The notes under the pieces: generated by a model
The model's database searches: none
What the model was told of the DNA's origin: nothing
The model's input: the letters and a program-made list of their open reading frames with translations, nothing else
Made by a program: the position numbers and the translations under genes
NCBI GenBank assembly: GCA_029881255.1
Contig: JAOUMY010000009.1
Location: 124,001 to 188,000, forward strand
Direction of reading: 5' to 3'
From: Gammaproteobacteria bacterium
GTDB lineage: Bacteria; Pseudomonadota; Gammaproteobacteria; S012-40
DNA: 64,000 nt
Part shown: in pieces, positions 41,493-64,000 of the stretch
Position numbering within the stretch: the first letter of the stretch is position 1
How the letters are laid out: each line of letters opens with the position of its first letter

Positions 41493-41579
41493 GCCGAGGT
41501 GGTGAAATTGGTAGACACGCTAGCTTCAGGTGCTAGTGGGGGCAACCCCGTGGAGGTTCGAGTCCTCTCCTCGGCACCA
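41493..41579 (+). tRNA. tRNA-Leu (anticodon CAG)
   Basis: An 87-base tRNA with acceptor GCCGAGG pairing CCTCGGC, discriminator A and an encoded CCA end. The anticodon stem CTAGC/GCTAG holds loop TTCAGGT with anticodon CAG, which reads CUG. The variable arm GGGGGCAACCCC is long, as expected for leucine tRNA, and the T-loop TTCGAGT is normal. Confidence 0.96.
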
Positions 41580-50621: not shown

Positions 50622-51551
50622 TTAAATTTCAGCCACTTTTTTTATGCTTTGCCAAATTTTATCGGTTAGCAATGTTTGTTCCGTATCGAACCAAACTAAA
50701 TTGTCTTCACTGCGCATCCATGTGAGTTGTCTCTTGGCGAGCTGTCGTGTCGCAACGACTCCTTTTTGTCGCATTGTGTCATAGTCATATTCACCTTCGA
50801 GGTATTGCCACACCTGTCTATACCCTACACAACGCATGGAAGGGAGACCGAGATGCAGGTCTGTGCGCGATTTGAGTGCACGCACTTCCTCGACGAAACC
50901 GTTATCGAGCATTTGATCAAATCGTGTTTCGATACGTTGGTGTAAAATCGCACGCTCAGTTGGTGCAATTCCGATTTTGACAAACTGATAGGGAAATCCA
51001 TTCTTGGTTTGCTCTGCCCAAAGCTCGCTCATGGGCCGCCCCGTCAGGCGAAAAATTTCCAGCGCACGCATAATGCGTTGTGGATCATTTGCATCTATGC
51101 GTTGGGCAGAGACAGGATCTACCTCAGACAATTGTCGATGTAGACTGACCACACCTATAGCAGAAAGTTCTTTTTCCAATTCAGAGCGAATTTCTTCGTT
51201 GGCCGATGGCAAAGCCGACAGCCCCTGTTCAAGTGCGCGGAAATACAACATGGTGCCGCCAACTAACAAGGGCATCTTGCCCCGCCCTCGTATTTCTTCG
51301 ATCAAACGCTGCGCGTCGGCTCGAAATTCGGCAGCAGAATAGGCCTCGGCCGGGTTCAGGATATCGATGAGATGATGGGGAACGGTGCTTAGTTCGTCCG
51401 CAGAGGGTTTGGAAGTGCCGATGTCCATGCCGCGATATACCAGGGCGGAATCAACACTGATAATTTCACACGCCATACGTTCGGCCAATGCGAGCGCCAG
51501 CGCAGTCTTTCCGGCCGCCGTCGGCCCCATGATGAAAATAGCTTCAAGCAT
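50622..51551 (-). CDS. miaA: tRNA dimethylallyltransferase MiaA
   Basis: Adds the dimethylallyl group to A37 of tRNAs reading UNN codons. The 309 residues start with the P-loop [11 protein letters not shown], followed by [16 protein letters not shown] and the substrate motif [11 protein letters not shown]. In most relatives mutL precedes miaA on the same strand; here the upstream side is occupied by a small plus-strand gene and the island, so synteny breaks at this point. Confidence 0.96.
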
Positions 51552-51660
51552 GTCTCTAGATTATTGCTTTCCTGCTAACGCTACAGTTGCCATATACATT
51601 ATACGGGTATATGATAAAAACCTTGTAAAATCAATACAAAACCTTCGAAAATACTCAGAT

Positions 51661-51855
51661 ATGGCTAGTCTAAACAAGCTAAACCAAGAGCCTGTCAAAG
51701 GGGAGAAGATTACCTGGGGCGAACTCAAGGCACTAGCAGAAAATGCTGGTGTCCGCGATGAAGACGAAATCGATCTCATCGACATCGCTTGGGGGCGGAT
51801 AGAAGACTGTCAGTGCACCAAAGACGAGGACTTTGGCTGGCAGATTCGTCTCTAG
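51661..51855 (+). CDS. Small acidic protein, unknown
   Basis: A 64-residue acidic protein (MASLNKLNQEP to GWQIRL) with no family I recognise. The frame is open upstream into the miaA antisense, but the ATG at 51661 gives a compact start; there is no strong ribosome site. The segment KITWGELKALAENAGVRDED is helical. It ends 16 bases before the convergent antitoxin-like gene. Reality rests on composition and position only. Confidence 0.5.
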   Translation: MASLNKLNQEPVKGEKITWGELKALAENAGVRDEDEIDLIDIAWGRIEDCQCTKDEDFGWQIRL

Positions 51856-51870
51856 TCGTCGAATTATTGT

Positions 51871-52308
51871 TCACGATTTTTTGGATACCATCGATGACAA
51901 TACTACCTTTGCCCGCTTTTCATCGGTTTCCCAATCAAATGCGCAATCCAGGTGTGAGCGTACCGCGATTATGCCGTGCAGATCGTCTTCAAGCATGGCT
52001 TGCACCGGGGTGCGGCCGTTAAACCGGCGATGGACCTGATTCATCCAAATCGGCCCCATACTAGCATTGTGTGGGTAAGAAGTCCGGAGCGCATCAGCTA
52101 TACCCATGAAGTGCATAACTCTTTCATATATATGCTTTTCTTCCGGAAACGGCGTCTCTTTGCGATACTGGCTGAGATGCCGGGTGCGAGTCTTCTCGGG
52201 CAAGCCTAACAAGCGAATCTGACCTTCAGGCGGTATTTCCCAGCTGCCGAGCAAGCGCATGATAAATCTGGCCAGCTCGATCTTTTCTTCATCCGTCAAT
52301 TGATCCAT
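51871..52308 (-). CDS. MbcA/ParS/Xre-type antitoxin-like protein (DUF2384)
   Basis: A 145-residue protein with the layout of Xre/MbcA/ParS antitoxins. A helical N-terminal DNA-binding-like region contains GQIRLLGLPEKTRTRHLSQYR. A C-terminal DUF2384-type domain has the hallmark W-x-N...F-N-G-R-T-P-V-Q-A-M (NQVHRRFNGRTPVQAM). Such proteins normally pair with a RES-domain NADase toxin. No toxin gene is adjacent, so it is orphaned, a stand-alone regulator, or a remnant. Confidence 0.7.
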   Translation of the reverse strand: MDQLTDEEKIELARFIMRLLGSWEIPPEGQIRLLGLPEKTRTRHLSQYRKETPFPEEKHIYERVMHFMGIADALRTSYPHNASMGPIWMNQVHRRFNGRTPVQAMLEDDLHGIIAVRSHLDCAFDWETDEKRAKVVLSSMVSKKS

Positions 52309-52388
52309 TAAATTTTCCGAGTGAAATAGTAAACCTATACTAACAAGTTCATACCTTCGAGTCAGTCTTTAATATCAATGCTAATTAT

Positions 52389-52790
52389 GTGAAAAAGTGT
52401 GAAATAACTCACTATTTTGGCCGATATAGAGACATGTTACCGGCTTTGAATAAAACGATGAGTGAACACAAAGCACAACTATCGGCCCAGGTTCATCGAA
52501 ATGCGATTGCTATCTTTGACAAAAAAACCAAGTTAAAGGCCAAACTACTAACCATCTCCGAGATTGGAGCGGGGATTCTGTTGCCTAAACAGATAGCGGA
52601 GGGCACCGAATTCCTCTTATTAATCAATCTGCCGGCTGGCAAGGGCACGTATGAATGCCTTATCAAGGTGCGTGCCGTGCATTATCGTTTACAACAAGAT
52701 GTTTACTATATCGGTGTGCATTTTGTTGGACTAAAAGATCATGAACGTGCCCGGATCAAACAGTATATTCTGGGAAAACATCGGTTATAG
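52389..52790 (+). CDS. PilZ-domain-like protein
   Basis: A protein of up to 133 residues resembling a PilZ domain (VHRNAIAIFDKKTKLKAKLL, then ISEIGAGILLP; the second matches the D/N-x-S-x-x-G region loosely). The N-terminal Arg motif RxxxR is weak, so c-di-GMP binding is uncertain. The start is unclear: GTG 52389 and ATGs at 52434 and 52458 are possible, none with a good ribosome site. It is the last gene before the repeat cluster. Confidence 0.6.
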   Translation: MKKCEITHYFGRYRDMLPALNKTMSEHKAQLSAQVHRNAIAIFDKKTKLKAKLLTISEIGAGILLPKQIAEGTEFLLLINLPAGKGTYECLIKVRAVHYRLQQDVYYIGVHFVGLKDHERARIKQYILGKHRL

Positions 52791-52796
52791 GATGAA

Positions 52797-52858
52797 CTCG
52801 AACCGAAGGGTTCTCATCATGACCTACCTCTCCGCCATATAAAAAAAGAGGGCTACCC
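52797..52858 (+). repeat. 62-bp direct repeat, copy 1, with tRNA-Ser-3'-like end
   Basis: This block, beginning CTCGAACCGAAGGGTTCTCA, recurs exactly at 52970-53031. It contains CCTCTCC-G-CCA, which matches the 3' acceptor, discriminator and CCA of serine tRNAs, and then A7 and GAGGGCTACCC. In copy 1 the block runs on into GGTAGCC, forming a small hairpin with a short T-run after the PilZ-like gene. Confidence 0.85.
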
Positions 52859-52969
52859 GGTAGCCTTTTGGAGATTAGGGTGTTGGGCAGAGGGATTGAT
52901 TCGCTCCTGCGTCGCTCACCCCTACGGGGCGCCGGCTATCGCCGACGTCTCCGCTCGCTGCGCTCGCTT
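52859..52969. other. GC-rich spacer between repeat copies
   Basis: About 110 bases with short palindromes, for example GCGCCGGCTATCGCCG and CGCTCGCTGCGCTCG. Composition differs sharply from both sides. No coding frame is supported. It looks like part of a repeated intergenic element. Confidence 0.5.
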
Positions 52970-53031
52970 CTCGAACCGAAGGGTTCTCATCATGACCTAC
53001 CTCTCCGCCATATAAAAAAAGAGGGCTACCC
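52970..53031 (+). repeat. 62-bp direct repeat, copy 2
   Basis: Identical over all 62 bases to 52797-52858. Its right part forms the left arm of the long palindrome that follows. Confidence 0.85.
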
Positions 53032-53070
53032 ACCGGGTAGCCCTCTTTTTTTATATGGCGGAGAGGTAGG
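52996..53070. repeat. 75-base perfect palindrome (36-bp arms, 3-base loop)
   Basis: The arms 52996-53031 and 53035-53070 are exact reverse complements around ACC. Each arm carries CCTCTCCGCCA, A7 and GAGGGCTACCC. Its centre works as a bidirectional terminator (stem with flanking A and T runs). The whole could be extruded as a cruciform, a plausible recombination site next to the integrase. Confidence 0.85.
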
Positions 53071-53085
53071 GATTATTTCTAGCTT

Positions 53086-53208
53086 CCGATAACGTCCAGC
53101 AACGTCTTTTTTATACATATTTACAATGACTTATAGACCGATGACGTCCGACAAAGTATAGTAGCTTCCAAATTATTTGGGGGACCAAATGTGGTACCGG
53201 TAACGTTC
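53086..53208 (+). repeat. Three short repeats upstream of the integrase (candidate arm sites)
   Basis: CCGATAACGTCC (53086-53097), CCGATGACGTCC (53138-53149) and CCGGTAACGTTC (53197-53208) share 9 to 11 of 12 positions and are spaced 52 and 59 bases apart. They lie between the palindrome and the integrase start. Tyrosine integrases bind such repeated arm sites; the assignment is inference. Confidence 0.5.
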
Positions 53209-53225
53209 GAAAGAGAGAATTCGAG

Positions 53226-54458
53226 ATGGCAATACACAAGCTAAATCCTGCCAAGGTCAAAAATGTGGGACCGGGTACCTACGAGGATGGTGGAGGGCTA
53301 CGCTTGGTGGTTTCCAAGACCGGAGCGAAGAAATGGGTTCTCAGGATAACAGTCAAAGGCCAGAAAGGTCGCAAGGAGATGGGGCTGGGTGGATATCCGA
53401 CGGTAAGCTTGGCTAGGGCTCGTATCAACGCTGCCGCTGCGCGAGAGCTAGCCAGACAAGGAATTAACCCTATTACAGCGAGAAAACTTCAACCTACCGA
53501 AACGCCAACCTTCACAACCTGCGCGGCTAGATATATCCGAGCTCACCGTCGAGCATGGGCTAATCCTAAGCACCAACGGCAGTGGGTAAGAACATTGAAG
53601 ACCTACGCGAGACCTATTATTGGCGAAATGCTCGTTGACCAAATATCAACCGAGGATATTCTAAAAATACTTCAGCCCATCTGGACCACAAAGACCGAAA
53701 CCGCGAGCAGAGTACAGGGCCGACTTGAAAACGTCTTTGACTTCGCCATTGCACATGGACGGAAAGACGCATTTAACCCGGCCCGTTGGAAAGGTCATCT
53801 CGACAAAATGTTACCTAAACCGTCAAGGGTCAAGAAGGTTGTACACCATCCAGCGATGCCCTTTGCCGAAGTTCCTGACTTTCTGACCAAGCTCGCCGAG
53901 AGCAAATCGATCTCTGCAAAAGCGCTAGCCTTTCTTATTCTAACGGCCACGCGGACAGGAGAAGTGTTAGGTGCCACTTGGGACGAAATCGATATAGAGA
54001 ACGCTGTTTGGACTATCCCGGCTGAGCGCATGAAAGCGAAACGAGAGCACAAAGTTCCTTTGACGGGCCGGGTAATACAAATTCTCAACTCTCTGCATCG
54101 ATTCGCTGACACGCCGTACATTTTTCCAGGGCTCAAGAAAGGGAAGCCTATGTCGAATATGGCGCTACTCAAACTCATGCGCGATATGGGCTACGGTACG
54201 GCGAATACACACGGTAACTACGTACCCCATGGCTTTCGTTCCAGTTTTCGTGATTGGGCGGGGGAAACTACAAACCACCCAAGCGACGTCGTTGAGATGG
54301 CACTGGCGCATACAATCAAGAACAAAGTTGAGGCTGCCTATCGGCGAGGCGACTTGTTCGCAAAGAGAATACGACTAATGGAAGATTGGACGACCTTCCT
54401 TACCAGTAAAAAGCGGCACCCCACAGTTATCCCTTTCTATTCAGAAAAATCTGGCTAG
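53226..54458 (+). CDS. int: P4-type tyrosine integrase
   Basis: A 410-residue site-specific recombinase. It has an N-terminal DUF4102 arm-binding domain (about 1-90; LTDGGG-like EDGGGLRLVV, GLGGYPTVSLARAR), a core-binding domain and a catalytic domain. Catalytic residues: Arg243 (TATRTGEVL), His335 and Arg338 (PHGFRSSFRDWA), His362 and Tyr372 (AAYRRGDLF). All are present, so it should be active. It reads away from the repeat cluster into the island and ends 36 bases before the convergent cargo operon. Confidence 0.94.
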   Translation: MAIHKLNPAKVKNVGPGTYEDGGGLRLVVSKTGAKKWVLRITVKGQKGRKEMGLGGYPTVSLARARINAAAARELARQGINPITARKLQPTETPTFTTCAARYIRAHRRAWANPKHQRQWVRTLKTYARPIIGEMLVDQISTEDILKILQPIWTTKTETASRVQGRLENVFDFAIAHGRKDAFNPARWKGHLDKMLPKPSRVKKVVHHPAMPFAEVPDFLTKLAESKSISAKALAFLILTATRTGEVLGATWDEIDIENAVWTIPAERMKAKREHKVPLTGRVIQILNSLHRFADTPYIFPGLKKGKPMSNMALLKLMRDMGYGTANTHGNYVPHGFRSSFRDWAGETTNHPSDVVEMALAHTIKNKVEAAYRRGDLFAKRIRLMEDWTTFLTSKKRHPTVIPFYSEKSG

Positions 54459-54493
54459 ACTCGATTGAGAAGCGAGATGCTGGCTGGAATCAC

Positions 54494-54766
54494 CTACTTC
54501 TTTATTCGCTTTTTCAATCGTCCAACTGTGATAACGCAACCATTTGTTAGACTTTCCACCCTATAGACGTCCAGATACTTTTTATTTTCCCGTACGAAGT
54601 GACGCCCAAAGTCGTTCTCCATACGCCGGATACTATTTTTAGTAAACGTTACTTTTACCGCTCCCCGACCATCGTGAATCTCTTCACCATAATCTGAAAG
54701 CCAAATGTGTACTATTGGCGGAATGGCTCGCTGCTGATTTCGGGCTATACAATGCTTACTATACAT
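54494..54766 (-). CDS. Small basic protein of a coupled two-gene module, unknown
   Basis: A 90-residue basic protein. I do not recognise the family. It has an N-terminal ARNQQRAIPP segment, a core strand pattern (VKVTFTKNSIRRMENDFG) and a basic end (GRLKKRIKK). Its ATG overlaps the stop of the upstream gene by 8 bases (ATGTATAG), so translation should be coupled. Size, charge and coupling to a ribbon-helix-helix-like partner resemble a toxin, but no toxin motif is visible. Confidence 0.65.
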   Translation of the reverse strand: MYSKHCIARNQQRAIPPIVHIWLSDYGEEIHDGRGAVKVTFTKNSIRRMENDFGRHFVRENKKYLDVYRVESLTNGCVITVGRLKKRIKK

Positions 54767-55427
54767 TCTCTTCCGCTCCCTCGGCTGATGTCACATCAAA
54801 CGCGAAGTTCAGCTCCGCCTGCAATTTCTCCAAATCCAAAGATAACGACAAATTCTCGGGGCTGCCCGGTATTTGCGCATCGTCCAGATAACACGAAAAC
54901 GCACTAAATTTACCCGGAAGTAATGCTAAATAGAGTCCCGTTTCATTCCGCTCCGCCATTGCAACCCTTAGATACCAAAGTGGATCAGAAAATATATGTT
55001 GGGCAGCCATCAAGGGGCTCGTTGGCACATCCTCGTAGTTATCAAATTCGAAACTACTGCTGTATTCCGGAAGGTCAAGCCATTTCAACAGTTGACGCGG
55101 CGAAAGAAGAAACAAGAAGACTCTATTCGCGAATGCATCCCGAACGAGGTTACCCTGCTTTACTACTTTGTTGAGCCTTGAGGCGACCTCCTTATCGACC
55201 AGCACATTTATCGTCGTTGTATCTAATCGTTTTATACTGTCCGATATGTGTTTCCGAGCTTTGCTTGATAGCCTACGACCCTCCAGTTCCGCTTCCAAGC
55301 AGCTTGACTCCATGCGCAGTACGGAGTTTAGGAAGGCATCACGCTTCACAAAAAGCGCTCTAAATTGGTTGTTCACTGCCTTTAGCAAAGGTTGGTAGAT
55401 TTTCAATGTGACTTTTGTCTGTTCCAT
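54759..55427 (-). CDS. Protein with duplicated ribbon-helix-helix-like segment, unknown
   Basis: A 222-residue protein. The start ATG at 55427 has AGGA about 10 bases upstream; an earlier start at 55460 adds 11 unlike residues. The N-terminal half holds two related units, KVTLKIYQPLL...RDAFLNSVL (about 4-37) and TTINVLVDKEV...RDAFANRVF (about 68-102). Each is a strand followed by two helices with the shared motif RDAFxNxV, as in a tandem ribbon-helix-helix. The C-terminal half is unrelated to anything I know. It likely binds DNA and might repress its own operon through the repeat just upstream. Confidence 0.7.
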   Translation of the reverse strand: MEQTKVTLKIYQPLLKAVNNQFRALFVKRDAFLNSVLRMESSCLEAELEGRRLSSKARKHISDSIKRLDTTTINVLVDKEVASRLNKVVKQGNLVRDAFANRVFLFLLSPRQLLKWLDLPEYSSSFEFDNYEDVPTSPLMAAQHIFSDPLWYLRVAMAERNETGLYLALLPGKFSAFSCYLDDAQIPGSPENLSLSLDLEKLQAELNFAFDVTSAEGAEENV

Positions 55428-55485
55428 TGCGAATATCCTGTCAAAGGTGGCGGTACACAAACAGAATAGCCGCAGCAGAATCCAG

Positions 55486-55507
55486 TTTAAAGATTTTTCT
55501 TTAAAGA
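55486..55507. promoter_or_regulatory. Palindromic operator-like site upstream of the two-gene module
   Basis: TTTAAAGA at 55486-55493 and the perfect 10-base palindrome TCTTTAAAGA at 55498-55507 share the same core. They lie about 60-80 bases before the start of the ribbon-helix-helix-like gene, inside the 164-base gap. Autorepression by that protein is a guess. Confidence 0.35.
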
Positions 55508-55591
55508 TTAATGGAAGCTTTTTATGCTATTGTTTTAAATAAGATTTGTAATGTCTTACCATATTCACAGCAAATTGATATTGCTCAAGAC

Positions 55592-58500
55592 CTAGGACGA
55601 ATTCGAGTTATTCATAACAAATCGGTATGAATCGCCTTGCAAGAATTCTGGTTTCATAAAAAAAACGAATTCCAAGGTCACCTCGTTCGCGTCGCTAACC
55701 ACTGGCTGAGGCTGGACATCGACATAACGGTTCTGATCAAACTCCTGGACATCAAGCGTTTTGAATGAAGATTTCGGCAAAAGTAGCGAGTGCTCAACAC
55801 CACCTGGAGGCATCCGATAAATCTCTATGCTGTCTAGATGGCAGATGTATCGCGATGGGTACCCGTCGTTCTTGCGCACTACGAGAGAGGCGTCAAGTTC
55901 ACTTTCAGAACCAAACAAAGCACGATCCAGCATATTATCCAAATCCCGATGACCAACAAACAATACCGGAGTATCGCCTTGATTCGATATGTCCCGTGAG
56001 CGCTGGACCAAGCTTTTTACTATTCCATGGATCGATTCTTCCGCTACTTCCTCGAAATTGATTCCGCCCAACATCGCTCGATACAACATTTCTTCAAGCA
56101 CGCCTCGAAAAAAGTCCCTAACCCAGTCCTCATCGTTCACAGCCCGCGTGACTGTAATATTTGTTACTAGGTCACTTTTAGGATAATTCGCAATCGAGCA
56201 CTTCCGACGAAAACTTTCATCAAGCGACTGCACAAATCTGATTTCCCTAAATAGCGTCAAGGGTACCGGCCCAGAATCGCGTGAAAACACACCCGATGAT
56301 GCAAGCTTACCGAAAGTAATTAGACGATTATTGTCATATTCTCCCGTAGCCAGCTCTTGCTCATTGGTATTTCGTATTTCTGCGCTCAACTTATCAATTG
56401 ACGTTTTATAGTTCTGCAAACGTAATTTTAGGGAATCATTATTTTCGATCAAGTAATCGTAATGAGCCAACTCTTGGGCCTCGATACTCATCAACCAATC
56501 CAATTCAACCAGCAAGTCACGACGTTTTTCGAATCCAAATAGGTCCGACAAAAGATATGCTCTCATCGAACTTGACAATCGCCACTCCAGACCAGAATAG
56601 TAGACGGCAAGCACCCTATACATTTCTCGTAGAGACCATATACTATCTGCGCCCCGGCTACTATACACACGCCCTATCACTCTAGGTGTCTCTTCAATTT
56701 CACCTAGCCGCTCGACAAATCCATCCAGCCAATTGGTGTACCTCGTGCCGTCTCCTCTCCCTGTCCAACGTTGATGTATGTAGGCCTCTACTATGCTCTT
56801 TCCACTTGCCACACCGTTTTGATGTCGACCGAACGCGCCAGAGGGCAACAGCCGATTATTCTCCACTAGAGCTTTTATGAGATCCACGACATCTTCGCCG
56901 TTATCACGTGCTCTCTTTAGTACATAGGTTGCGACAATCAAGCGAACATCGAACCAAGCGTTTCGAATCGCAAGATTCATAGCGACGTCTGCTGCTAGCT
57001 CTCCATCGTGCTGTCCAAATTCCCTGGTTCTGTTTCCCTGATCGATTCCTAAGATCGTATACGAAATAAAGGCTCCGCTATACATAAAGGTATTAGCTTC
57101 ACGCCCAATAAATGCAGATTCGTACCAATACACAAGCATGTCCGCAGCCCAATTTGACGCCATCTTGTCACCCACTCGCAACGAATCAACAATCATGAAC
57201 GCCGTATCCCTCAAATGGGTCATAAATGGCTCGGATATTTTCTTACAATCTTCCCAAGCTTTTGGTTGCTTTGGCAGCAAACGCCCCCAATGCTCCCAAG
57301 CGCCTACAAAAACGGAAAGACTACGTTCATGGGACTCTATTATTTCACGCGAAAGACGGTCTCGCCCTTTGAATCCTATAGGGTCTACTACTGTACTCCA
57401 CATTCTGTAGTGATCGTTTATCTTTTCGGTAATGAGAACAGGCGCCATATGCTCCCAGAGCGAACCAAATATGTTCAAGTGAAAATAACTAAGAGTGCGT
57501 AAATATTTGCTATAGTCACGCGTGTTTACACGAATTGCTTTCGACATTTCGTAATATTCGATCGACAACTGTCTTAGCAGACTAACTCCCCCAAAAGCGT
57601 CTCTACCCAATAGAAGCCAACTGCTCTTTTCACCATTTGGCCGGGTATATGCTGTAGTGCATATAATATCGCTGGCCCATTCCTCTAACTCACCAACGGC
57701 ATCCTCAAAATTCTTGTGATTGTCCGCCTTTATCGCATCAAAAACTTCACTTACAATGGCATTCAAGACGGGCTTTATGTTTTCTATTGGGAATACCGGT
57801 TTAGTCCTAAAAGAATATGCTAACCAAAGTAATATTTTCCATGACTTTTTCATCCGGGTCGTCGACTGCGCAACGACCCATTGATCGCTCGGCCTAGCCA
57901 TTCCAACTGCCGGAAGCTCCAAACAACCTTTTTCATTCCTTGCATTCATAAACCAGCCACATATCATGGCAGAAAGAACCCGACCATATATATTGTTGAG
58001 AAATTTCTTCCTTCGAAATTTCCGAGTGAATGAATCTGCAAATTTTTTACGATAGCAATAATGCATTATCGATTTAGCGCCGCCATCTTCTAAACCATAC
58101 CTCGGCACAAGCCCAGATTCCTGTAGATTCATCGAAAGAGTCAAAGATGAACTGGACCGTATTTCAGAAATGAGAAGCTCATTAATGCAAAACCTTTGAA
58201 CCAGATTATTCTTGCTATCGATAGATATAAATCGAAACGTAGCAAATAAGAACCAACCCACGAGAACGAGGTTAAACAAAAACCATACTGCGAGACCGAA
58301 GGAAATGATGTTATCGAAGCGCACCGGTAACCACGGATGCAAAAACTGCACTAGAATTATCACCCCGGCTAGTGCGAGCCCACTATAACCAACAAACATA
58401 AAGCCTGAATATCGTCGAAAGATTCCCCACAAAGCTCTATTTGACGTTCGGTTTTGTAACAACAAACCCACAAACCCAACGACCAATGGAAAAATCAAAC

Positions 58501-58810
58501 CTATAACCGTGAGCTGCCCAGCAAATATATTGCTCTGCCAAACCGCTATATCACCCCACGGCCGCGTCCACGACGGAAATACTTGTTTTAATTCTGGTAG
58601 CCAAAAGTCTAAAGCGACGCAATTTAGTACGTAGGCTATCGATAACAAAAGTGTGTATCGAACCGGGTGGGTCGACCATCTTAATACTTGTCTTTCAAAC
58701 AGCCCCCACTTTTTTTCCCTATAGACTTTGTTCTTAAATACCGTTTCCCGTAGATTTTTTTCGATCTGATAATTTAGTGAATTGAGCAGCCAGCCCCTTT
58801 TCCACCACAT
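55592..58810 (-). CDS. Large four-helix membrane protein of unknown function
   Basis: A 1072-residue protein; no family recognised. The start is ATG 58808-58810, with AAGGAAG about 6 bases upstream; a TTG one codon earlier is less likely. A basic N-terminus (about 1-48) precedes four hydrophobic helices, about 51-73, 94-119, 133-160 and 167-195. The remaining 870 residues are soluble, charged and mostly helical, with no P-loop, nuclease or protease motif that I can see. It lies between hsdR and the two-gene module on the same strand, 85 bases after hsdR. That suggests a cytoplasmic sensing or effector part tethered to the inner membrane, perhaps in phage defence. Confidence 0.75.
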   Translation of the reverse strand: MWWKRGWLLNSLNYQIEKNLRETVFKNKVYREKKWGLFERQVLRWSTHPVRYTLLLSIAYVLNCVALDFWLPELKQVFPSWTRPWGDIAVWQSNIFAGQLTVIGLIFPLVVGFVGLLLQNRTSNRALWGIFRRYSGFMFVGYSGLALAGVIILVQFLHPWLPVRFDNIISFGLAVWFLFNLVLVGWFLFATFRFISIDSKNNLVQRFCINELLISEIRSSSSLTLSMNLQESGLVPRYGLEDGGAKSIMHYCYRKKFADSFTRKFRRKKFLNNIYGRVLSAMICGWFMNARNEKGCLELPAVGMARPSDQWVVAQSTTRMKKSWKILLWLAYSFRTKPVFPIENIKPVLNAIVSEVFDAIKADNHKNFEDAVGELEEWASDIICTTAYTRPNGEKSSWLLLGRDAFGGVSLLRQLSIEYYEMSKAIRVNTRDYSKYLRTLSYFHLNIFGSLWEHMAPVLITEKINDHYRMWSTVVDPIGFKGRDRLSREIIESHERSLSVFVGAWEHWGRLLPKQPKAWEDCKKISEPFMTHLRDTAFMIVDSLRVGDKMASNWAADMLVYWYESAFIGREANTFMYSGAFISYTILGIDQGNRTREFGQHDGELAADVAMNLAIRNAWFDVRLIVATYVLKRARDNGEDVVDLIKALVENNRLLPSGAFGRHQNGVASGKSIVEAYIHQRWTGRGDGTRYTNWLDGFVERLGEIEETPRVIGRVYSSRGADSIWSLREMYRVLAVYYSGLEWRLSSSMRAYLLSDLFGFEKRRDLLVELDWLMSIEAQELAHYDYLIENNDSLKLRLQNYKTSIDKLSAEIRNTNEQELATGEYDNNRLITFGKLASSGVFSRDSGPVPLTLFREIRFVQSLDESFRRKCSIANYPKSDLVTNITVTRAVNDEDWVRDFFRGVLEEMLYRAMLGGINFEEVAEESIHGIVKSLVQRSRDISNQGDTPVLFVGHRDLDNMLDRALFGSESELDASLVVRKNDGYPSRYICHLDSIEIYRMPPGGVEHSLLLPKSSFKTLDVQEFDQNRYVDVQPQPVVSDANEVTLEFVFFMKPEFLQGDSYRFVMNNSNSS

Positions 58811-58895
58811 CAATGCTTCCTTACTTTGGTTGAAACGAAAGAGAACTCTATAAGCGTAGTTGTTAAAAACGGGAGGTACGTCTTATCCGAATATC

Positions 58896-61800
58896 CTACC
58901 CCGAATGACTCACCGCATTTTCATTTATATGCCTAACCAACTCCACTACCTTCTTACTCATATCCGGCCCAAACACCCCAACAACACCCTTATCGTTGAT
59001 ATTGGTGAATGGGGTATCAAACATCGCCTTAGGCTCCATCACGCCGTTCTGGACGAGGTATTCGACAACTTCGTTGAGAAAGGATATTTGATCAGGTTGT
59101 AGCGTTGCATCGGCTAGGAAGTCTGCAAACGCCTCCTTAGCGGCATTGCGGTCGAGGCCCACAACAGAGCGAACGAGAACACCCAAAGTTTTCCCTTCGT
59201 ATATTTTTTCGTACTCTTCTCTGGGAATTGGTCCAAGTTCGGAGAACAAGATGTCTTCGAGCGCTTTGATGTCGGTCTGCGTGACTGGCTGGTTATTTTT
59301 CAAGCGCCGAATCGTGATGTGATCCTGGTGCTCTCGAATATAACGCTGTACCCGAGAGCGATAGTCCACGAGGTTAGTATCGGGCCTGACGATATCGAAT
59401 TCTTCTCCTTCTTCCCCAATCTCATCCTCAAAATTGGTATACACATCCTCTTTGCCCTTCTGGGTATCGACGAACCGGATTAGATCACGCAAGCGGGTCC
59501 TGACATTCTCCAACATAGGCAGAGTGACGTTCATCCACCAGTCATCGGTCTGCAAGTCTAGAATCAACTCCATCTGCTTCGCGACACTCGGAATACTTGA
59601 TTTCTCTTCGAGATCGCTAGCAATCTCCCTGATCATCTTTTGATATTTAACCTGGGCACTGGCATTTCTCAATATCGCGAGTTGAAGGTTTAACACGAGC
59701 AAATCAAATCGACGCCGAAACTCGTCATCATCATCTTGTGACGGTAGACCGCTGATATCGTTGCTTAGGGCTGCGATATCGTCATCACTCAAAGTTTGCC
59801 AACTATCCCGCTTAGAATATTTCTCTACCTCGCGTCTTTGCTTGCGAACGATGAAATTATCCAGATTCATCGAATCGACGACCGTGTGCAAATCATCCTT
59901 TAGCTGATCAATGAGCCCCTTCAAGCCTTCGTCATCAGGTTTACCGTGCTCAAGAGACACAGCCAGCTCCAATCGTCGTTTGAAGACCTGCTGTTTAATC
60001 GACTCCTGTACGGGCGAGTCGTAGCCATCGGGATTAGCATCGAAGAAATTCAGGTTCTGGCAGTAGTCGAATATAACGAACTCTTTCTTATCAAGCCCCG
60101 GCCCAAACAGTTCCGGGCAAAGGCGCGTCCCCCTGCCGATCATCTGCCAGAACTTTGTCTTGGAACGCACCAGTTTGAAGAACACCAGATTCACGACCTC
60201 CGGCACATCGATGCCGGTGTCCAGCATATCAACCGATACAGCGATCTGAGGCATCTTGTCCTTGATGCTGAACTGATCGATCAGGCTCTGGACATACTTG
60301 ACCGAGAAATCTATTTTCTGACAAAACTTGCCAGCGTAATGGGGGTAATTCTTGTCGAACTGCTCGACGATAAAATCGGCGTGTTTACTGTTCTTGGCAA
60401 AAATAATGGTCTTGCCTAGTTTGTCTCCCCCTTCAACCTTTCTACCCTTCGCCATCAAGTGTTCCAGAACCTTGTTCACCGTATCGATATTAAAGAGCCA
60501 CTTGTTGAGCGCGGCTGGTTCGATAGCTTGTTTTAGCTGCCCGGTATTCTCGTCGTAGAACTGCTCCTGCAATTCGTACTCTTCCTGCTCTTCTGGGCTA
60601 AGCTCATTGTATTTGATACCTTCGCGTTGAAACTTTAGCGGAACCGATATCGCCCTTGGAGGAACCAGAAAGCCATCCTTCACCGCTTGATCCAGCTCAT
60701 AGGCAAACGTTGGTTGATGATCGTCCAACTCAAACAGACGGTAAGTATTGCGGTCCACTTCCCCTCGAGGCGTAGCTGTCAGACCCAGTAACAACGAATC
60801 GAAATAGTCGAAAATGGCTCCAAATTTTTGGTAAACGGACCGATGCGCTTCGTCGATGATGACTAGATCAAAATGTGCAACCGAATAGGTTTCTTTTAAA
60901 TCCTTCTTAGTCCCGTCGATCAGATTCAACATCGACGGGTAGGTGGAGAAGACAATACGCGCCGCCTCGCGCTCCTCCTTTGTGGACTTCTCGATGAGAC
61001 TAACAGTAGTAGAATGCGCTGCGAATTTTCCGAAGGCCTTTTTCGCCTGTCGTACTAGCGCTGTGCGGTCAGCCAGGAACAGTACTCTTCTCGCCCAACC
61101 TGCCCGTAATAGCATGTCAACTAGCGAGATGGCGAGACGGGTTTTACCGGTACCGGTGGCCATGACGATAAGACTTTTCCTCTTACGTTTGGCACCGAAC
61201 TCTTCCATCACTCGCGCAGCGGCCTCAATCTGGTAATGCCGCCCAGTGATCTCTGTCTTGGGTTTTATCAAAGTCAGGTCTTGCCTACTCTCGCGTTGAT
61301 TTATACGCCACTGGAGTTCGTCACGAGTAGCAAAGCCATGTACCTCTCTTGGCGGATAAAAGGAATCGTCCCACAATTGAGTCTTGTAGCCGTTCGTATA
61401 GTAAATGATTGGGCGTTGACCGAAATGCTTTTCTAAACAGTCCGCATAAAGTTCAGCCTGCCGTTTGCCCTCTTTTTCGCTTACTCGGGTACGTTTTGCT
61501 TCTACCAAGCCCAAAGGCTTACCATCCTGCCCCCAAAGCACGTAGTCGACATACCCGGTACCGGTAAAGGTACCCTTTGCGTCAGGCATGCAATTGGTAA
61601 CTTCGAACTCCTCGGTATCATCCGCCTTTGGGTCCCAGCCAGCTTCACGCAGCATCACATCGATAATCAGCTCACGGGTCTGGGCCTCGGTGTATTCGTC
61701 ACTGCCGATTGTTTTTTCGTTTTCTTCCTTAACCTGCTGTAACAAGGCTAGTTGTTCTTGCAGTTCTTTGAGCTTGGCCTCTGACTGTTTAAGCTTTTTC

Positions 61801-62327
61801 TGTGCTAGATCGTGGGCCCGGTCTTTCGCGTCCAGGTCCTGCTGAAGTCTTTCCAACTGTTGCTTGTTGAGCTGAGGCACGTCCGGTTCGGACTTTGGCA
61901 ACCATTCGACCTTGAACGTATCAGGTGCCGCTCCACCACGCGTATAGACTCGAGCAAGCCATCCGAGGAAACTGTGTAAGGAAGTAGCCGCCTTGAGACT
62001 TTCCTCCGTAGAGATCTTCTGATCACCGTGTACCGCCACATTCCCAAGGCGGTGGATAAACTTGATATCGTGGAAAAGACCTTTGCGGATATTGGTTGCA
62101 AAGGTCGGCTCATGAATCATAGCCGCCAGGCTTTTTTCGTACGGGGCTTTTAAGGCAGTATCATTGGCGAAAAGCCATTTGAGGGAGCGCTCAAGCGTGC
62201 GTCGCGCAAAAATCGCGGCGGCGCGGGGATCACGCAGGGCATACGCTTCCACCTGCCCCGCATCATCCAGCAGGAAGGCCCAGTGTTCGGCCAGAAAACC
62301 AAAATTGCTTTTTTCTTTTTCTTCCAA
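58896..62327 (-). CDS. hsdR: Type I restriction enzyme HsdR subunit (DEAD/DEAH motor-nuclease)
   Basis: Motor and nuclease subunit of a type I restriction-modification enzyme, 1143 residues. Order: N-terminal DUF4145-like domain (about 10-130), coiled coil (about 150-210), PD-(D/E)xK nuclease with Asp261 and Glu276-Ala-Lys278 (LVEAKRT), then helicase motifs: Walker A MATGTGKTR (389-397), IIDEAH, GLTATPRG and QMIGRGTRL. The EcoEI-type C-terminal domain closes it. Translation begins at a TTG (62327) preceded by AAAGGA. All catalytic motifs are intact. hsdM and hsdS are not complete in the window and should lie to the right. Confidence 0.92.
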   Translation of the reverse strand: MEEKEKSNFGFLAEHWAFLLDDAGQVEAYALRDPRAAAIFARRTLERSLKWLFANDTALKAPYEKSLAAMIHEPTFATNIRKGLFHDIKFIHRLGNVAVHGDQKISTEESLKAATSLHSFLGWLARVYTRGGAAPDTFKVEWLPKSEPDVPQLNKQQLERLQQDLDAKDRAHDLAQKKLKQSEAKLKELQEQLALLQQVKEENEKTIGSDEYTEAQTRELIIDVMLREAGWDPKADDTEEFEVTNCMPDAKGTFTGTGYVDYVLWGQDGKPLGLVEAKRTRVSEKEGKRQAELYADCLEKHFGQRPIIYYTNGYKTQLWDDSFYPPREVHGFATRDELQWRINQRESRQDLTLIKPKTEITGRHYQIEAAARVMEEFGAKRKRKSLIVMATGTGKTRLAISLVDMLLRAGWARRVLFLADRTALVRQAKKAFGKFAAHSTTVSLIEKSTKEEREAARIVFSTYPSMLNLIDGTKKDLKETYSVAHFDLVIIDEAHRSVYQKFGAIFDYFDSLLLGLTATPRGEVDRNTYRLFELDDHQPTFAYELDQAVKDGFLVPPRAISVPLKFQREGIKYNELSPEEQEEYELQEQFYDENTGQLKQAIEPAALNKWLFNIDTVNKVLEHLMAKGRKVEGGDKLGKTIIFAKNSKHADFIVEQFDKNYPHYAGKFCQKIDFSVKYVQSLIDQFSIKDKMPQIAVSVDMLDTGIDVPEVVNLVFFKLVRSKTKFWQMIGRGTRLCPELFGPGLDKKEFVIFDYCQNLNFFDANPDGYDSPVQESIKQQVFKRRLELAVSLEHGKPDDEGLKGLIDQLKDDLHTVVDSMNLDNFIVRKQRREVEKYSKRDSWQTLSDDDIAALSNDISGLPSQDDDDEFRRRFDLLVLNLQLAILRNASAQVKYQKMIREIASDLEEKSSIPSVAKQMELILDLQTDDWWMNVTLPMLENVRTRLRDLIRFVDTQKGKEDVYTNFEDEIGEEGEEFDIVRPDTNLVDYRSRVQRYIREHQDHITIRRLKNNQPVTQTDIKALEDILFSELGPIPREEYEKIYEGKTLGVLVRSVVGLDRNAAKEAFADFLADATLQPDQISFLNEVVEYLVQNGVMEPKAMFDTPFTNINDKGVVGVFGPDMSKKVVELVRHINENAVSHSG

Positions 62328-62367
62328 GCAATAATCCTTTGCGTTGCTCTTTTAACGAATAAGCCGA

Positions 62368-63519
62368 TTACCCATTCGTACCTTGATTTCTAAATATGAC
62401 GATATAGTCAACAAACCAAAATGTACGGTTACGCCGTTTCTCTGATAACTCCGCCAAAATGCCATGTTTAACGAAATCGTTGACCAACGCAGATGCGGTA
62501 TTAACGTTGACCCCGAGCATACCGGACACAATCTTTATATTAACCACGGGTGCCTGATAAAGGTATTGCATCAAGGTCTGTGCATTCTCCTGGCGGCGCG
62601 TGGAAAAACGTGGCAATACCTCCCGCTCCAGTCGCTCCTTCAAGGCAAGTATATCTTTGAATACCTGGATCGAGTTTGCCGCCGTTTCACGCACACCATA
62701 CAGAAAAAACACCAGCCACTCTTTCATCTTGTTGGCCTCGCGAACGGCCATGAGGCGATCAACATACTCTGTCTTATTACGCTCGAAATAATCCGACAAA
62801 TACAGAGCAGGTTTATGCAACAACCCAAAGCTAGCCATATAAAGAGCTATCATAAGGCGTCCTAAACGACCATTACCGTCTAAAAAAGGGTGTATCGTCT
62901 CGAACTGATAGTGCGCAACGGCGATCTTGATGAGATGTGGTACGTGTAGCTCGTCATTGTGTAGAAACTTTTCTAGGTCGCTCATCAAGTCTGTAACTTC
63001 ATCCTGATGTGGCGGTATAAAAACCGCGTTTTTCAGGCTAACCCCGATCCAGTTCTGACTGTTTCGAAACTCACCCGGCAGTTTGTGCTCCCCGCGCACA
63101 CCTTGCATCAAAACCCGATGCGTATCCTTCAACAGCCTGTTTGATAGGGGCAAGGTCCTGAGCTGATCGATGGCCGCATTGATCGCCTGAATGTAGTTCT
63201 GCACTTCTTGCCAGTCATCCCGCTTTTCCGGCTCGACATCCTGTTCGTCTAGTAGCGCCTCCTCCATATTGGTGCGCGTACCTTCGATGCGACTGGACTG
63301 GGTGGCTTCCTTGGTGATGTGCATGCGAATGAAAAAATCGACATCGGGCACCAATTGAGAAAAGGCATTTAGCTCGCCCAATACCCTGTCGGCATCGCTC
63401 AATAACTGGGCGACCTCCCCGTCGGCGATCTCCCAGGGGTGATTGATTGGCTCGGGCGAGAAGCTTTTGTATTCATATTGCTGCTTATAGCCACCCGCTT
63501 TGTATGCCTTAATATCCAT
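62368..63519 (-). CDS. Fic family protein with self-inhibitory helix and winged-helix tail
   Basis: A 383-residue Fic protein, predicted to transfer AMP from ATP to a target protein. The active-site loop is canonical: HPFLDGNGRLGR at 210-221, with catalytic His210. An N-terminal inhibitory motif SSRIEG at 75-80 (class II type) would block ATP until released. The flap NAVFIPP lies near 164-170. A C-terminal winged-helix-like segment (about 310-365) could bind DNA. It sits 40 bases before hsdR on the same strand. Fic genes are often found inside type I restriction loci; the target is unknown. Confidence 0.9.
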   Translation of the reverse strand: MDIKAYKAGGYKQQYEYKSFSPEPINHPWEIADGEVAQLLSDADRVLGELNAFSQLVPDVDFFIRMHITKEATQSSRIEGTRTNMEEALLDEQDVEPEKRDDWQEVQNYIQAINAAIDQLRTLPLSNRLLKDTHRVLMQGVRGEHKLPGEFRNSQNWIGVSLKNAVFIPPHQDEVTDLMSDLEKFLHNDELHVPHLIKIAVAHYQFETIHPFLDGNGRLGRLMIALYMASFGLLHKPALYLSDYFERNKTEYVDRLMAVREANKMKEWLVFFLYGVRETAANSIQVFKDILALKERLEREVLPRFSTRRQENAQTLMQYLYQAPVVNIKIVSGMLGVNVNTASALVNDFVKHGILAELSEKRRNRTFWFVDYIVIFRNQGTNG

Positions 63520-63670
63520 TTATGTCGAATTCTCCACTACTTTTCGATATAACTAAACCGATAGTTCGAAATGTAGACGACAAATAAGTGTTATGTCAAA
63601 TTCTTAGCCACTTTTTGACATAAGAGAATTCTTATGTCAAAAACCCCTGACACCCACCCGACATAACCCT
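63520..63670. promoter_or_regulatory. Repeated TTATGTC operator-like array upstream of fic
   Basis: The core TTATGTC(A/G)AA occurs at 63520, 63591 and 63632 on the plus strand and in reverse at 63612-63623 and 63660-63666. Two of these form a 12-bp inverted repeat (TTTTTGACATAA / TTATGTCAAAAA, 63612-63643) with an 8-base spacer. The first copy overlaps the fic ribosome site. A repressor binding here would cover the fic start; the winged-helix tail of Fic itself is one candidate. Confidence 0.6.
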
Positions 63671-63863
63671 ATGTATGAAAAAGCCTTTTGAATGGGCTCT
63701 TGTCGAACAGCCACTTGAGGGAACGCTCCAGGGTACGGCGGGCGAAGATGGCGGCTGCACGGGGATCACGCAGGGCATAGCTTTCCACCTGCCGGGCATC
63801 GTCCAGCAGGAAGGCCCAGTGTTCGGACAAGAATGAAAAATTGCTGTTATTGTTATCCGCCAT
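63669..63863 (-). pseudogene. Truncated 5' fragment of a second hsdR
   Basis: A 64-codon frame whose residues 7-53 match residues 7-53 of the intact HsdR at 43 of 47 positions (SNFSFLSEHWAFLLDDA and so on), then diverge and stop. At the DNA level I count about one difference in five or six bases over 112 aligned bases, mostly silent. It therefore comes from a different hsdR allele rather than a recent copy. The rest of this second hsdR has been replaced by fic. Confidence 0.85.
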
Positions 63864-63867
63864 CTGA

Positions 63868-63913
63868 CCGCCATGGATGGCGGAAATGCCGATTTTGCAG
63901 GAGCAAAAATCGG
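63868..63913. repeat. Two adjacent hairpins upstream of the hsdR fragment
   Basis: CCGCCAT/ATGGCGG (63868-63883) and CCGATTTTGC/GCAAAAATCGG with one bulged base (63889-63913). They lie between the end of the right-edge gene and the start of the hsdR fragment. The first abuts the fragment's start and could mask its ribosome site. The second could act as a weak terminator. Confidence 0.5.
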
Positions 63914-63967
63914 CCTCTCACCATTCCCTTATTTGTTGATCGAAGCCACATCCTTGTAACCATCCTC

Positions 63968-64000
63968 CTAAGCCGCCTTGGTTGATTTACTCAGTTCGCC
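63968..64000 (-). CDS. C-terminal end of a gene entering from the right edge (partial)
   Basis: On the minus strand one frame reads GELSKSTKAA and then meets TAG at 63968-63970. The same frame stays open afterwards as EDGYKDVASINK until TAA at 63929-63931. By position it should be the end of hsdS or hsdM, but 11 codons are too few to name it. A frameshift or an internal amber codon is possible. Confidence 0.35.
   Translation of the reverse strand, partial: GELSKSTKAA

Follow-up and report, generated by a model that had tools for sequence, protein, structure and literature searches.

Two kinds of described system come close to the locus analyzed here. Islander-type tRNA-gene islands, as far as the accessible part of PMC4383910 describes them, have a regenerated tRNA gene at one end and a displaced tRNA fragment at the other, encode a tyrosine integrase and are matched by an empty site in a relative. 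The tRNA-linked repeats (TLRs) of E. coli, in the accessible text of PMC8144298, number 22 copies at ten loci within tRNA or rRNA operons, and share 18-19 identical bp with the 3' end of the tRNA or rRNA gene that lies upstream of them; for the copy at tyrT an early functional claim was retracted according to the same text. We compared the locus with both, and with the Rfam model RtT (RF00391). The TRIP1 repeats of E. coli were also considered and were dropped, as they are not tRNA-linked in the available part of PMC10888264. Our literature search, in which Bosl and Kersten 1991 and Rudd 1999 were covered via citations only, returned no island that splits a tRNA gene from an RtT/TLR tail.

The window, i.e. 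the whole stretch of 64,000 nucleotides that was analyzed, contains a block of repeats next to an integrase gene. We consider it very probable that this block is the native tail of a tRNA-Ser(UGA) gene, displaced by an island of ~19.5 kb that was inserted at the end of the gene, and that the tail, including its palindrome, predates the insertion. The relevant features are listed below (C9 is the contig of the window, C21 the contig onto which the island continues).

50622..51551, minus strand: miaA (Pfam IPPT), native chromosomal neighbour of tRNA-Ser(UGA), which adjoins tRNA-Ser(TGA) in the relative G002
52797..52865, minus strand: tail unit 2, truncated, with half a palindrome and the terminator (52851-52865), the tRNA end copied in inverted orientation (52823-52837) and the beginning of the unit
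52878..53020, minus strand: RtT/TLR-like tail unit 1, matching RF00391 over 1-130 and 88% identical to the tail of the genome's own tRNA-Ser(GCT)
52996..53070, minus strand: palindrome, made up of the tRNA 3' end, the native terminator hairpin with A and T tracts, and an inverted copy of the tRNA 3' end
53055..53074, minus strand: att core, the displaced 3' end of tRNA-Ser(UGA), AATCCCTACCTCTCCGCCAT, a 20-bp exact match to C21:4588-4607
53055..64000, no strand: left part of the island (integrase, two unknown ORFs, HsdR and Fic), which runs on to the end of C9 and then to C21:4607
53086..53206, plus strand: three short CCGRTRACGT repeats (at 53086, 53138 and 53197), possible arm sites of the integrase
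53226..54458, plus strand: tyrosine integrase of 410 aa (Pfam Arm-DNA-bind_3, Phage_int_M and Phage_integrase)

A repeat search of the window recovered the two identical 62-bp copies (52797-52858 and 52970-53031, spacing 173) and the perfect inverted repeat with 36-bp arms (52996-53031 and 53035-53070, 3-nt loop) that had been reported in the initial annotation, together with a perfect inverted match of 39 bp between 52823-52861 and 53032-53070. Identity over 36-62 bp is far above chance expectation, and the folding energy of the palindrome is -69.6 kcal/mol versus -22.0 +/- 3.3 for its shuffles (z -14.4). The annotated lack of a complete tRNA-Ser was borne out by ARAGORN, which finds none in the 64-kb window and returns a tRNA-Leu (41493-41579) as the sole tRNA. 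The three copies of the tRNA-Ser 3' end are likewise present, but their orientation had to be revised: the true 3' end is the minus-strand copy at 53055-53074 and both plus-strand copies are inverted versions of it. Read along the minus strand, the block starts with the final 19 nt of tRNA-Ser(UGA) (53074 to 53056), followed by an A-tract, a hairpin, a T-tract, the inverted copy of the tRNA 3' end, a GC-rich stretch of ~125 nt, one half of the palindrome once more, and, down to 52797, a second stretch in truncated form.

The counterpart of this tRNA end was found outside the window. A genome scan with CCTACCTCTCCGCCA gave four exact copies, three of them in the block and the fourth on C21, where it constitutes the 3' end of an intact tRNA-Ser(tga). 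The 20-bp AATCCCTACCTCTCCGCCAT is common to both places, arranged as direct repeats. The earlier proposal of an attachment site derived from the tRNA-Ser 3' end next to the integrase is thus supported by a 20-bp core at both ends of the island, and the suggested check for a copy at the true tRNA-Ser gene or the other island end came out positive at the intact tRNA-Ser(UGA) on C21. The distance between both att copies amounts to ~19.5 kb on a join of C9 and C21 that is based on a 126-bp overlap: C9 ends at window coordinate 68111, and its end and the start of C21 have 126 identical bases, the final few bases of C9 differing in a G run. Moreover, TGGGGGAC has a single copy in the 64-kb window, next to the integrase at 53178, and two copies in the examined 14 kb of C21 (4513 and 4525). 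The location of these copies only at both island ends fits the two ends of one element. On the island side, the sequence 3' of the intact tRNA folds into a hairpin that resembles a terminator and precedes a T run (z -5.6); this hairpin is absent from the output of a simple terminator scan. By eye, the island-borne terminator (L019 on C21, 4538-4587) resembles the one behind tRNA-Ser(TGA) in the relative G008 (L079), where miaA likewise does not adjoin the tRNA gene and where a related element perhaps once resided.

A comparison with relatives provides the third hallmark of an Islander-type island. In G002, which belongs to the same family and a different genus, an uninterrupted site is present with the order purA, hisZ, hflC, hflK, hflX, miaA, tRNA-Ser(TGA) and the Bax1-I gene (miaA and Bax1-I confirmed by Pfam, the other genes named from reading their translations), with 133 nt between tRNA-Ser(TGA) and the miaA frame. 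In the window the purA-to-miaA genes lie left of the block as in G002, and on C21 the Bax1-I gene lies right of tRNA-Ser. A tRNA-Ser(tga) was found within 6 of the 11 Bax1-I-match loci, own genome included, and miaA adjoins the tRNA-Ser(tga)-Bax1-I pair in one of the five relatives, G002. The remaining four have other DNA (G006 and G011, by eye), other genes (G008) or a contig end (G005) at this position. G002 lacks the 1.2 kb (51552-52796) that separates miaA from the block in the window and contains small ORFs. This stretch holds a weak MbcA/ParS-like ORF and a PilZ ORF, the latter having, besides itself, only one weak match among 13 family genomes, in the own genome. Among 56 relatives, own genome included, the block was matched at all in five, and a close, island-free relative with the tail still on tRNA-Ser(UGA) was not found.

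The locus therefore resembles the Islander-type islands, in the accessible description of PMC4383910, in all respects named above: an intact tRNA gene at one end and the displaced fragment at the other as direct repeats, a tyrosine integrase (by Pfam) inside, and an empty site in a relative. It differs from them in that a palindromic terminator and a repeat tail are attached to the displaced fragment, and in that the integrase lies at the fragment end. As to the cargo, PADLOC matches in the island comprise the restriction (HsdR), specificity and methyltransferase subunits of a type I system and a Fic protein, and the part on C21 encodes a second, short tyrosine recombinase (L019, 368-964, 198 aa), an AAA_25 protein and a CHC2 zinc-finger protein. 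Several island ORFs gave no match. Two of these, 55592-58813 (minus strand, 1073 aa) and 54759-55460 (minus strand, 233 aa), lack a Pfam, PADLOC or NCBIfam match and, lying beside the type I restriction-modification system and the Fic gene, are candidates for unknown defence genes.

The integrase itself shows a clear association with tRNA-Ser ends. Homologues (E<=1e-60) were found in 23 of the 369 genomes of the class, at 27 places including that of the window. Within 250 nt upstream of the integrase start, TGGYGGAG is present at 21 of the 27 places and the exact GGCGGAGAG at 13 of them, compared to 5.2% and 2.3%, respectively, of random windows drawn from the homologue loci themselves; six places have neither. 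This enrichment indicates that the integrase type usually adjoins a displaced tRNA-Ser end. A perfect palindrome lies beside the integrase at one homologue locus (L216), an RtT-like unit of 29.6 bits was found at another (L219), and a third (L213) has two 84-bp repeats, 92% alike and 185 apart, in the layout of the window. L213 is not among the matches of the RtT model.

The tail unit in the window was compared with RtT and the TLRs on the basis of a full-length cmscan match to RF00391 at 52878-53020 (minus strand; 29.4 bits, E 6.2e-4 in a 321-bp search). The likeness, for the TLRs as far as PMC8144298 is accessible, concerns the length of the unit, its place behind a tRNA gene and its full-length alignment to the RtT model, and extends in the intact units of other genomes to the 19-nt copy of the tRNA 3' end. 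The differences are a score below the Rfam gathering score (29.4 versus 45 bits), a decayed copy of the tRNA 3' end (AATCAATCCCTCTGCC, at the end of the unit), a palindromic terminator that includes an inverted copy of the tRNA, and a tRNA that is no longer in front: whereas the TLRs are situated within tRNA or rRNA operons, the ~19.5-kb island separates the block from tRNA-Ser(UGA). Because the RtT score was missed and the 3' copy is decayed, we describe the unit as RtT/TLR-like and have not filed it as a member. The tail of the own tRNA-Arg(CCG), unlike the decayed copy in the window, carries a 19-nt copy of the tRNA 3' end. In the class-wide search RtT matches (E<=0.001) were obtained in 65 of 369 genomes, in 23 of them above the cut-off, and none in the own genome; the tails of a tRNA-Gln (L241) and of tRNA-Ser(TGA) in G005 reach 54.8 and 40.5 bits. 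A conserved RNA structure of the tail is not claimed, as four units barely beat their shuffles (z -1.33, -0.95, -0.11 and -0.43); in an alignment of 15 tail units there are only 10 consensus pairs, 5 of which changed on both sides.

The same tail is found behind other tRNA genes. In fact, the own tRNA-Ser(GCT) on C10 runs straight into a perfect palindrome, identical in layout to that at 52996..53070 but different in sequence, and into the spacer of the block (88% over 184 bp), and a palindrome with three units, spaced about 186 apart, comes after the tRNA-Ser(GCT) gene of G247, which belongs to a different family. Tandem tails also occur behind the own tRNA-Arg(CCG), with a period of 176, and behind tRNA-Ser(TGA) in G005. 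Copies of the tRNA's own 3' end (direct, at least 12 nt, or inverted, at least 15 nt) follow four of the 31 own tRNA genes tested, i.e. Arg(CCG), Pro(GGG), Arg(ACG) and Ser(GCT). At the tRNA-Pro(ggg) locus (L042) there are two further 16-nt copies of the 3' end, and the spacer looks unlike the Ser and Arg tails.

These findings bear directly on the two origins that the initial annotation had offered. Serial integrations at one tRNA-Ser 3' end, leaving tandem att copies, would account for the tRNA-Ser end in every copy and for the adjoining integrase. Yet site-specific integration would not yield copies inverted relative to the tRNA, as two of the three are, and tails are present at Arg, Gln and Tyr tRNAs as well as at tRNA genes without the window integrase. 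A homologue of this integrase was found in none of the 80 palindrome, 30 RtT, 28 spacer and 4 further tail loci, which are short, so that a different or distant integrase could escape. Since the palindrome and unit follow tRNA-Ser(GCT), both in the own genome and in G247, with no integrase homologue there, the repeats do not stem from repeated integration, an origin to which we assign very little probability. A mobile tRNA-derived repeat, inserting at many places, is improbable too, though slightly less so: the unit is present in many genomes, and the Ser and Arg tails of one genome have part of the core in common. Against it speaks the persistent linkage to tRNA genes. In the own genome the convincing spacer matches are the two tRNA-Ser tails only. 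A spacer-only query matched 24 of the 369 genomes, own included (E<=0.01), and among the loci fetched (28 foreign ones for the spacer, 30 for RtT) the eight strongest spacer matches (E<=1.3e-4) are each preceded, at a distance of 65-283 nt, by a same-strand tRNA-Ser. Of the remaining 20, which are weaker, five follow a tRNA for Ser, Arg or Gln, two near a contig start have a downstream tRNA-His only (L240, L258), and 13 of the 28 (all E >= 3.7e-4) have no tRNA within the locus; these 13, L240 and L258 are taken as weak or chance matches. Similarly, a tRNA for Gln, Tyr or Ser immediately precedes the match in 26 of the 30 RtT loci, and 12 nt or more of its own 3' end recur in 22 of the loci, mostly the 19 nt from AATCC to CCA; the tRNA is absent in four, two of which lie near contig ends. 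What survives of the mobile repeat is a weak form, a unit that resembles tails staying linked to tRNA genes.

Chimeric reads can give rise to perfect palindromes with 3-nt loops, and an assembly or cloning artefact was considered for that reason. A different perfect palindrome is present, however, at the tRNA-Ser(GCT) on C10, and a scan of genome contigs with CTCTCCGCCA-N25-55-TGGCGGAGAG yielded at least 115 such stretches. In the 80 loci examined, the tRNA-Ser 3' end constitutes one arm in 67 of 81 palindromes and not in the other 14, a linkage that is partly by construction as the search pattern was derived from the tRNA-Ser end. In 65 of 68 cases the part of the arm inside the tRNA measures 10-16 nt, but the pattern fixed the first 10 nt for most loci and nothing follows for the lower bound. 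Palindromes of this form are common and do not depend on an island of the window type, and an artefact is very improbable. Perfect palindromes of a tRNA-Ser 3' end and its terminator, with arms of up to 40 bp, were seen in records of Rhodanobacter, Dyella, Massilia, Stenotrophomonas, Clostridia and others (L088-L167).

The preferred reading, a native tRNA-Ser(UGA) tail displaced by an island, builds on what is visible at the sequence level: both att copies, the contig overlap, the order at the empty site of G002, and the tail elsewhere without the integrase. Against it count that G002 is the only one of the five relatives with miaA at this site, the 1.2 kb missing from G002, the reliance of the contig join on an overlap, the RtT score below the cut-off, and the failure to find a close, island-free relative with the tail in place. 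The tRNA-Ser(UGA) gene would originally have been located between the Bax1-I (YccA-type) gene and miaA. An island with a tRNA-Ser-targeting tyrosine integrase would then have entered by recombination between its attP and the final ~20 bp of this gene, the exact crossover point falling somewhere within the 20 bp. By supplying a replacement 3' end and terminator the island would have regenerated an intact tRNA at its far end, now on C21, and the original 3' end with its palindromic terminator and two-unit RtT/TLR-like tail would have been pushed to the integrase end. This order of events, like the history of the tail, is what we infer, and any RNA product or function of the tail would be hypothetical. 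The tail would no longer be co-transcribed with tRNA-Ser(UGA).

The case consists of known kinds of elements, and the severing of RtT-like tails by islands is mildly new. It explains an odd block of repeats and a palindrome as the native, island-displaced tail of a tRNA gene. Moreover, the accessible sources describe RtT/TLR-like tails in E. coli and Pasteurellaceae, and the analysis suggests that they occur in many of the families that make up the class. It also suggests that, in at least three genomes (the window, L213 and L219), an island carrying this type of integrase has separated tRNA-Ser from such a tail. The severed tails may serve as natural experiments for a putative tail RNA. A broader reading, which we regard as rather unlikely, is that RtT/TLR-like tails are a common gammaproteobacterial tRNA appendix, and that tails and tRNA-targeting integrases shape each other; as part of this reading, the 19-nt 3' copy of the tails (AATCC...CCA) spans the same stretch as the att core of the island. 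If true, the tails would be spare att sites or descendants of old ones, and islands would repeatedly sever tRNAs from their tail RNAs, with altered tRNA 3' processing or tail-RNA output as a result.
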